Origin: Streptomyces sp. CG1
GTDB taxonomy: Bacteria > Actinomycetota > Actinomycetes > Streptomycetales > Streptomycetaceae
Length of the DNA: 64,000 nt
Assembly (NCBI RefSeq): GCF_041080625.1
Contig: NZ_CP163518.1
Span: 4,464,001-4,528,000 of the forward strand
Direction of reading: 5' to 3'
Shown here: positions 27,422 through 29,078 of the stretch, piece by piece
Numbering within the stretch: the stretch's first letter is position 1
Layout: each line of letters starts with the position of its first letter
Translations under genes and position numbers: made by a program
Notes under the pieces: generated by a model
What the model was told of the DNA's origin: nothing
The model's database searches: none
Seen by the model: only the letters and a program-made list of their open reading frames with translations

Positions 27422-28720
27422 GTGGTATCCACGGTCACCACCACCGAGCCGGAGAAGACCTCCCCGGCCTCGTCCCGCCCAGGATACGGACAGCTGCTGC
27501 GCACCCGCGGCGCCTGGACCTTCCTGCTCCCCGGCTTCGCGGCGCGCCAGCCGTTCGCGATGCTCACCCTCTCCATCGTGCTGCTGGTCCAGCACACCAC
27601 CGGGTCATACGGCACCGCGGGCGCCACCGCGGCCGTCACGGGTGTCTCCATGGCGCTGTTCGCGCCGTACAGCGGCCGCCTCGCCGATCGCTACGGCCAG
27701 CGCGCCGTGCTGATGCCCGGTGTTCTGGTGCACACGGCCTCGGGCCTGTCGCTGACGGCGCTCGCACTGGCACACGCGCCCCTGTGGGCACTGTTCCTGG
27801 CGGCCGTCCCTACCGGCGCTTCGGTGCCGCAGGTCGGCCCCATGGTGCGTGCCCGCTGGGGCGTGAAGCTGCAGGGCTCACCCCTGATGACCACCGCGGC
27901 GGCTTTCGAGTCGGTCACCGACGAGCTGACCTTCGTCTTCGGCCCGCTGCTGGCGACCGCGCTGTGCACCACCGTGACGCCGGCGGCAGGCCTGGTCACG
28001 GAGGGCGCGCTGACCCTCGTCGGCGGTCTGCTGTTCGCCGCGCAGAAGGGCACGCAACCGCCGGTGACCGGTGAAAGCGGGCACGCGCGCGTGCAGCACG
28101 CCTCCGCGCTGCGCGTGCCGGGCGTGCGCGTACTGGTCGTGACCTTCCTCGGTATCGGCACCGTATTCGGCGGCATGCAGGTGTCGCTGGCGGCGTTCAC
28201 GGAGTCGATCGGCGAACCCGGCCTGAACGGCGTCCTGTACGGCGTCTTCGCCGCCGGAAACATGCTGTCCGGCATCGTTTGCGGCGCGATCGCCTGGAAG
28301 ACCGCTCCCCAGCGTCGCCTGGTCGTCGGCTACACGGCGCTCGCGATCATCGCGTCCGCCCTGTGGACGGCGCACTCGGTGCTGCTGCTCGCCGGGCTCG
28401 GCCTGCTGGTCGGTATGTGCATCGCGCCGGCACTGATCACCGGCTACACGCTGGTCGAAGGCCTGGTCCCGGCCGGTGCCCGCACGGAGGCCTTTACCTG
28501 GCTGACCGGCGCGGTCGCACTCGGGCAGGCGGCCGCCGTCACAGTCGCCGGACAGCTGGAGGACCGGCTGTGGGACGGCGCGGGATTCCTGGTGCCGATG
28601 GCCGGCACAGTGCTCGCGCTGGCGACCCTGCTGACGCAGCGGTCGAGGCTGGTGCCGCGGCAGCAGAACCGTACCGTCGCACGTGGCGTCGGTCACCGCG
28701 TGCCGGTGACGGTGGACTGA
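27422..28720 (+). CDS. MFS transporter
   Basis: A 432-residue 12-span permease. The MFS loop motif appears as GRLADRYGQRAVLM between spans 2 and 3. GTG 27422 (MVSTVTTTEPEK) has AAAGG at a suitable distance; upstream codons in frame look non-coding. The 300 bp before it contain no gene except a possible 11-codon leader (27239-27274). The substrate is unknown; the overall form resembles putative sugar or drug exporters. Confidence 0.85.
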   Translation: MVSTVTTTEPEKTSPASSRPGYGQLLRTRGAWTFLLPGFAARQPFAMLTLSIVLLVQHTTGSYGTAGATAAVTGVSMALFAPYSGRLADRYGQRAVLMPGVLVHTASGLSLTALALAHAPLWALFLAAVPTGASVPQVGPMVRARWGVKLQGSPLMTTAAAFESVTDELTFVFGPLLATALCTTVTPAAGLVTEGALTLVGGLLFAAQKGTQPPVTGESGHARVQHASALRVPGVRVLVVTFLGIGTVFGGMQVSLAAFTESIGEPGLNGVLYGVFAAGNMLSGIVCGAIAWKTAPQRRLVVGYTALAIIASALWTAHSVLLLAGLGLLVGMCIAPALITGYTLVEGLVPAGARTEAFTWLTGAVALGQAAAVTVAGQLEDRLWDGAGFLVPMAGTVLALATLLTQRSRLVPRQQNRTVARGVGHRVPVTVD

Positions 28721-28726
28721 TCCCCG

Positions 28727-28752
28727 GGAATGCGTCACTATGGACCGTCGTT
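28727..28752 (+). promoter_or_regulatory. SigR-type promoter of ruc (GGAAT-N18-GTT)
   Basis: GGAAT at 28727-28731, an 18-base spacer and GTT at 28750-28752 match the SigR (thiol-stress sigma) consensus exactly. The start codon is 36 bp downstream of the -10 element. Confidence 0.8.
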
Positions 28753-28777
28753 AGCACTCATTAAGTGAGAGTGCCAG
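28751..28777 (+). promoter_or_regulatory. CIRCE-like operator (HrcA site)
   Basis: TTAGCACTC-N9-GAGTGCCAG against the CIRCE consensus TTAGCACTC-N9-GAGTGCTAA: the left arm is perfect and the right arm has two mismatches that coincide with the ribosome binding site. It overlaps the -10 element and expected start point of the SigR promoter. Confidence 0.78.
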
Positions 28778-28787
28778 GAGGAAGACA

Positions 28788-29078
28788 GTGCCGACCTACC
28801 AGTACCAGTGCACCGAGTGCGGCGAGGGCCTCGAGGCGGTGCAGAAGTTCACCGATGACGCCCTGACCGAGTGCCCCAGCTGCGGTGGCCGCCTCAAGAA
28901 GGTGTTCTCCGCGGTCGGTATCGTCTTCAAGGGCTCCGGCTTCTACCGCAACGACTCCCGTGGCTCCACGTCGAGCAGCAGCCCGGCGTCGAAGTCGTCG
29001 ACCACGTCGTCGGCCGGCTCCTCCTCTTCCGACTCGAAGCCGTCCTCGTCGAGCTCCGCCAGCAGCTCCGCGGCCTGA
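28788..29078 (+). CDS. ruc: FmdB-family zinc-ribbon protein, homolog of redox chaperone Ruc
   Basis: A 96-residue protein. The N-terminal zinc ribbon has two Cys pairs (CTEC and CPSC) in YQYQCTECGEGLEAVQKF. The C-terminal 40 residues are a disordered Ser-rich tail. The GTG start at 28788 has AGGAGG upstream. Size, zinc ribbon plus disordered tail, linkage with 5-FCL, galU, moeA, rimJ and mscL, and the CIRCE operator all match mycobacterial Rv0991c (Ruc), a chaperone activated when its zinc cysteines are oxidised. The SigR-type promoter adds thiol-stress control. Confidence 0.82.
   Translation: MPTYQYQCTECGEGLEAVQKFTDDALTECPSCGGRLKKVFSAVGIVFKGSGFYRNDSRGSTSSSSPASKSSTTSSAGSSSSDSKPSSSSSASSSAA

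Follow-up and report, generated by a model that had tools for sequence, protein, structure and literature searches.

Within the window analysed here, a stretch of 64,000 nt from Streptomyces sp. CG1, lies a ruc gene that is preceded by a compact control region (Table 1). An earlier note on this DNA had described the product as a Ruc-type zinc-ribbon protein, and this was borne out. Cysteines 8, 11, 29 and 32 form a CxxC-N17-CxxC pattern, giving an N-terminal zinc ribbon, the C-terminal tail is Ser-rich as read from the translation, and the protein matched both PF09723 and TIGR02605, the latter with 75.5 bits against a cut-off of 31.3. The same four positions hold the cysteines found in the mutant primers for M. 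tuberculosis Ruc in the accessible part of Becker et al. 2020 (PMC7448276), where chaperone activity on oxidation was shown for that protein. By analogy, the Streptomyces product is likely an oxidation-activated chaperone of the same kind. It was matched in 58 of 61 relatives; within the window's genus (n=37) exactly one copy was found in 35 genomes and none in G001 and G032. The neighbouring genes expected from the earlier note were present in part: a galU-type NTP transferase, MoeA, a GNAT acetyltransferase and MscL were detected, but 5-FCL was absent from the ORFs scanned. MoaC and a MoCF protein were also found near ruc in the profile scan of the window ORFs. A large penicillin-amidase-family gene (PF01804; 22531-25413, minus strand) lies between galU and ruc.

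Table 1. Predicted elements of the ruc control region and the ruc gene, in window coordinates.
Feature	Position	Strand	Remarks
Candidate -35 of housekeeping (HrdB/SigA)-type promoter, TGGACT	28713..28718	+	overlaps 3' end of upstream MFS gene
SigR -35, GGAAT	28727..28731	+	exact match; 110/113 Streptomyces loci
Candidate housekeeping-type -10, CACTAT	28736..28741	+	17 nt past TGGACT; 10 bp upstream of the CIRCE-fused register
SigR -10, GTT	28750..28752	+	113/113 Streptomyces loci; TT open CIRCE
CIRCE operator for HrcA (predicted)	28751..28777	+	arms 28751-28759 and 28769-28777, N9 spacer
Ribosome-binding site, AGGAGG	28776..28781	+	covers final two CIRCE bases
ruc, FmdB-family zinc-ribbon protein, 96 aa	28788..29078	+	GTG start; TIGR02605, PF09723

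The central claim of the earlier note was that a SigR site and a CIRCE operator overlap upstream of ruc, and all its parts held. GGAAT-N18-GTT is exact at 28727-28752 and agrees with the SigR consensus GGAAT-N18-19-GTT given in the accessible text of PMC9205884. CIRCE, a 9-9-9 inverted repeat, fits TTAGCACTC-N9-GAGTGCTAA with two mismatches, both in the right arm; the TT of GTT are its first two bases, and it ends 10 bp before the GTG start. The SigR motif by itself is weak, with two matches in the window against 0.38 expected and at least two in 3 of 100 shuffles. CIRCE was the only match in the window at up to three mismatches, and none was found in 100 shuffles. With up to three mismatches allowed, the 11.1 Mb genome contains six CIRCE-like sites, and the reversed-pattern control finds one. 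The composite GGAAT-N18-GTTAGCACTC occurred exactly once genome-wide; when up to two mismatches were allowed there were two sites, as there were with the reversed control. A chance origin of the composite was ruled out by the shuffles, the reversed controls and the conservation throughout the genus described below. Where it adjoins AGGAGG (28769-28781), CIRCE has a deviant right arm (GAGTGCCAG) that does not vary among 64 nonredundant Streptomyces sequences, and the arm and the ribosome-binding site may be co-constrained.

The earlier note had staked its claim on the paired motifs recurring upstream of orthologs. They were kept in 375 of 392 Streptomyces genomes, all with the longer exact composite that extends through N9-GAGTGC; the reversed control gave none among the matches listed. 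Conservation was then read column by column from an alignment of 113 Streptomyces loci, corresponding to 105 distinct windows and 64 nonredundant sequences at 90%. The genomes, being related, are not independent of each other, and some were counted twice, so that the 115 Streptomyces entries used below hold 104 distinct sequences. In the 64 nonredundant sequences 97-100% conservation was found for GGAAT, C-15, A-14, A-11, T-10, G-8 and the TCG before CIRCE, as well as for both arms of CIRCE and part of the loop between them, for AGGAGGA and for a few columns inside the upstream gene. Both arms and AGGAGG (columns 25-30) were invariant, and many columns between the conserved blocks drop to 45-88%. 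GGAAT was missing from L023, L028 and L098, and also from L270 and L271, two loci picked for lacking the composite.

In the genome, one hrcA gene (PF01628, 199.3 bits) and one gene for the anti-sigma factor RsrA (TIGR03988, 104.2 bits against 62.5) were above cut-off. The groE genes of the CG1 genome carry the same CIRCE operator as ruc, but at these three loci (L065-L067) there is no GGAAT within 45 bp before CIRCE, and two of the three have a doubled CIRCE where ruc has a single one. The doubled operators lie at contig positions 4864561-4864623 and 6403657-6403730, with starts 36 and 47 bp apart. A further groEL-like gene far out on the chromosome (L067) has its own CIRCE at 10439473-10439499. 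In comparison to the SigR regulon promoters in the part of PMC9205884 consulted, the ruc site has the exact consensus and spacing, and it is the sole one of the genome to be joined exactly to GTTAGCACTC.

A closely similar arrangement has been described for M. tuberculosis. In the accessible text of Becker et al. 2020 (PMC7448276), HrcA directly represses ruc (Rv0991c), SigH induces it on heat, the SigH and HrcA sites overlap, with a proposed competition, and transcription has a second start 19 nt upstream. The gene is orthologous to that of Streptomyces, where an overlap of the same kind is predicted. A SigH regulon paper, as far as its accessible part goes, gives a 40-fold SigH dependence of Rv0991c, and rv0991c-rv0990c is named as an operon of HrcA in the part seen of a further paper. 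The two sigma factors, SigR of S. coelicolor and SigH of M. tuberculosis, are homologues with 72% identity according to the portion of the source consulted. Since SigH and HrcA acting on one promoter have been published for M. tuberculosis ruc, the concept of the earlier note is not new. In the open-licence literature, judged largely from listings, we found nothing that treats SigR/HrcA control of ruc in Streptomyces, and none that joins FmdB to HrcA, or FmdB to SigR in Streptomyces. Papers on SCO3184-SCO3189, which we took to be the S. coelicolor locus numbers, were unrelated by title. The accessible part of PMC3489674 did not treat ruc. The design is largely a known one met in a new host, and what our comparison adds is a probable housekeeping-type promoter and a difference in register.

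The earlier note had seen one promoter at ruc. The SigR-type promoter overlapping CIRCE stood, but the pattern of conservation suggests that a second one, of the housekeeping type, is interleaved with it. A-14, A-11 and T-10, all three invariant, fall within a hexamer that reads CACTAT in 75 of 113 loci and otherwise CAGTAT, CACCAT, CAAGAT, CAATAT, TACCAT or TAGTAT. All 115 Streptomyces entries have [TC]A...T at this register, against 0-19 of 115 at each of the 51 others scanned; the register with 19 falls in the upstream coding region. The complete pair (TGGAC, N17/N18, [TC]A...T) was present in 112 of 115 Streptomyces entries, or 101 of 104 distinct ones, and in all 29 entries from other Streptomycetaceae. 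TGGACT-N17-CACTAT is imperfect but conserved, and comparable pairs occur in relatives; as a promoter it would be weak because the -10 starts with C and not T and the -35 is TGGACT and not TTGACA.

TGGACT shares bases with the end of the upstream ORF, which stops right there in 107 of 113 Streptomyces loci and is likewise conserved at other third codon positions (columns -58, -55). Coding constraint may add to the conservation of TGGACT. As the sole cause it was rejected, since TGGAC persists without an adjacent stop: no stop codon follows directly in 13 of the 29 other Streptomycetaceae entries, and L079 and L081 keep TGGACT although the upstream ORF does not end there. Three loci without GGAAT have T at the first position of the -10 (TAGTAT in L028, TACCAT in L098 and L271), which would fit a promoter now working without SigR; L023 and L270 have lost GGAAT and gained no T. 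The pattern is only suggestive, because L028 and L098 have a replaced upstream stretch in common and all three loci have also lost TGGACT. The shared stretch also means that the three loci represent one or two events.

To place the two -10 elements in a wider frame, 224 ruc upstream entries with CIRCE (212 distinct sequences) were compared. CIRCE is a widely shared element of ruc upstream regions and was found in 73 of 80 outside Streptomycetaceae and f6, the family of a Mycobacterium-like genus. In 61 of these 73 regions [TC]A...T ends on the first CIRCE T, while the remaining 51 registers scanned give 0-13 of 73, and such a fused -10 was found in 24 of 27 CIRCE-bearing families when one base upstream was counted too. 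TGGAC or TTGAC stands 17-18 nt before it in only 29 of 73. This fused element resembles a housekeeping-type promoter that has CIRCE placed on the -10. A fused -10 as an intrinsic part of the CIRCE consensus was rejected, as none was seen by reading the five groE CIRCE sites of the CG1 genome (L065-L067). GGAAT-N18/19-GTT occurred at still other registers in 3 of the 73 loci (L164, L201, L203).

The non-Streptomyces Streptomycetaceae (n=29; 27 entries from 16 genera, Actinacidiphila L088 and Yinghuangia L126) contain both arrangements. In five entries (L126 from Yinghuangia soli, L243, L244, L249 and L250, representing Yinghuangia, g327 and g330) the housekeeping pair is fused to CIRCE only and no SigR site is present. 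In the other 24 the -10 ends exactly 10 bp further upstream of CIRCE; 19 of these have a strict SigR site, five are without strict GGAAT-N18/19-GTT, and three of the 24 also fit the fused register. All 115 Streptomyces entries are in the shifted register, 110 of them with a SigR site and three also fitting the fused register. The surroundings of the -10 are alike in both forms, with GTGGATGCTGCACCAT fused to CIRCE in one and GGGAATGCTGCACTAT followed by nine bases and then CIRCE in the other. Our reading is that the operator was displaced by one helical turn and that the gap came to be spanned by a SigR promoter, in an order of events that we infer from comparing these sequences.

Based on this comparison of sequences, we propose with a probability of about 0.7 that the Streptomyces ruc control region integrates three inputs, HrcA, SigR and an older housekeeping-type promoter, on about 65 bp. 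With little unfolded protein, HrcA on CIRCE would shut both promoters, and unfolded protein would lift it from the operator. Thiol oxidation would free SigR from RsrA, and SigR would then transcribe from GGAAT-N18-GTT. The start point usually lies 5-9 nt past the -10. Since the SigR -10 and the expected start are inside CIRCE, full ruc output would need both SigR release and HrcA departure. TGGACT-N17-CACTAT would give a basal level gated by HrcA, with an expected start just before CIRCE, and the HrdB/SigA-type and SigR holoenzymes would exclude each other. SigR and HrcA release together would thus give strong expression just when oxidation would activate the protein. In the ancestor CIRCE would have been fused to the housekeeping -10, and in Streptomycetaceae the operator would have come to lie 10 bp away with the SigR promoter across the gap.

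The alternative that survives best, although we consider it unlikely, has only two inputs: SigR activates, HrcA represses, and TGGACT and CACTAT are merely conserved spacer or coding sequence. Such a scheme matches the motif pair and the competition proposed for M. tuberculosis in the accessible text of PMC7448276. Spacer columns are generally well conserved among close relatives, the upstream ORF terminates at TGGACTGA in most loci, and the TGGAC/-10 pair was found in none of the seven f6 entries (six distinct genomes, L062 and L225 being from the same genome). It does not account as readily for the resemblance of TGGACT/CACTAT, in sequence and spacing, to the CIRCE-fused promoter of Yinghuangia, g327 and g330 and to the fused -10 of the 61 loci in other families, nor for [TC]A...T being invariable at this register and rare at others.

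Far less probable is that GGAAT-N18-GTT is used by another ECF sigma factor or not at all, with HrcA acting on the housekeeping promoter only. Streptomyces has many ECF sigma factors, the motif is short, with 0.38 chance matches expected in the window, and it is missing in 5 of 115 Streptomyces entries, two of which had been picked for lacking it. Against this, its columns are 97-100% conserved at a fixed spacing, it is identical to the SigR consensus in the part of PMC9205884 consulted, and the M. tuberculosis orthologue is driven by SigH (accessible text of PMC7448276 and of the SigH regulon paper). That the composite is an inherited decoration, with HrcA having ceased to bind its CIRCE in Streptomyces, is very improbable, for although the right arm is imperfect and its end overlaps AGGAGG, neither arm varies among the 64 nonredundant sequences, hrcA is present, and the same imperfect arm, mirrored (CTGGCACTC), recurs at the genome's groES CIRCE (L066).

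Of 394 genomes from the class, 72 showed a loose SigR plus CIRCE pattern, with none for the reversed control among the matches listed, so the notion that SigR plus CIRCE is general at ruc in Actinomycetes was rejected. The 72 comprise 38 of 40 genomes from the window's genus, 24 of 25 from one f6 genus and ten others. In 24 of 25 genomes of this f6 genus, called Mycobacterium-like for its agreement with the pattern published for M. tuberculosis, GGAAT-N18-GTT is two bases further from CIRCE: GGAAT begins 26 nt before it and GTT stands directly before it (GTTCTAGCACTT), whereas in Streptomyces the distance is 24 nt and TT is held in common. Because of this different register, the SigR/SigH-CIRCE pairing probably arose more than once.

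When the DNA of the ten others was read, three of the matches were upstream of ruc and three upstream of hsp20. L215 (f48) and L220 (another f6 genus) have GGAAT-N18-GTT over the ruc CIRCE, and L221 (f20) has an N17 spacer there, which is not strict SigR spacing. The Hsp20 (holdase) genes L213, L214 and L216, from three other families, belong to a different gene family (PF00011) from ruc and have GGAAT followed by a GTTAGCACTC CIRCE (N18, N18 and N19) in nearly the ruc register. As these come from one genome each of 394, the Hsp20 pairing is rare or partly chance, and all six single-genome pairings at ruc and hsp20 may be due to chance. Among the remaining four, L218 lies upstream of hrcA, L219 points away from a ruc gene, and L217 and L222 have no CIRCE at up to three mismatches. 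A phylum-wide draw gave matches in 18 of 296 genomes against one genome for the reversed control; the five outside the class (L238-L242) are near groEL, hsp20, groEL, hrcA and groES, judged by eye and not by HMM.

Whether Actinomycetes use the HrcA operator of ruc as a fixed platform and swap sigma factors on it, by a 10-bp displacement in Streptomycetaceae, at another register in Mycobacterium and in a few other lineages (ruc/Hsp20), is in our judgement evenly balanced. The same evenly weighted reading holds that the ancestral housekeeping promoter stayed, and that one compact region could read the basal state, thiol oxidation and unfolded protein. If it is true, a thiol-stress sigma factor combined with HrcA would be a recurrent wiring of ATP-independent holdases. 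At the ruc region as proposed above, thiol-oxidative stress and protein unfolding would be joined at one redox-activated chaperone in a genus that is harmless and tractable. The fused form without a SigR site, the shifted form without a strict SigR site and the shifted form with one would be living intermediates, showing how a promoter may swap its sigma factor beneath a fixed repressor operator. Two hrcA genes (L218 and L241) have GGAAT upstream of their CIRCE, which hints that in some lineages hrcA itself may receive an input of the SigR/SigH type.
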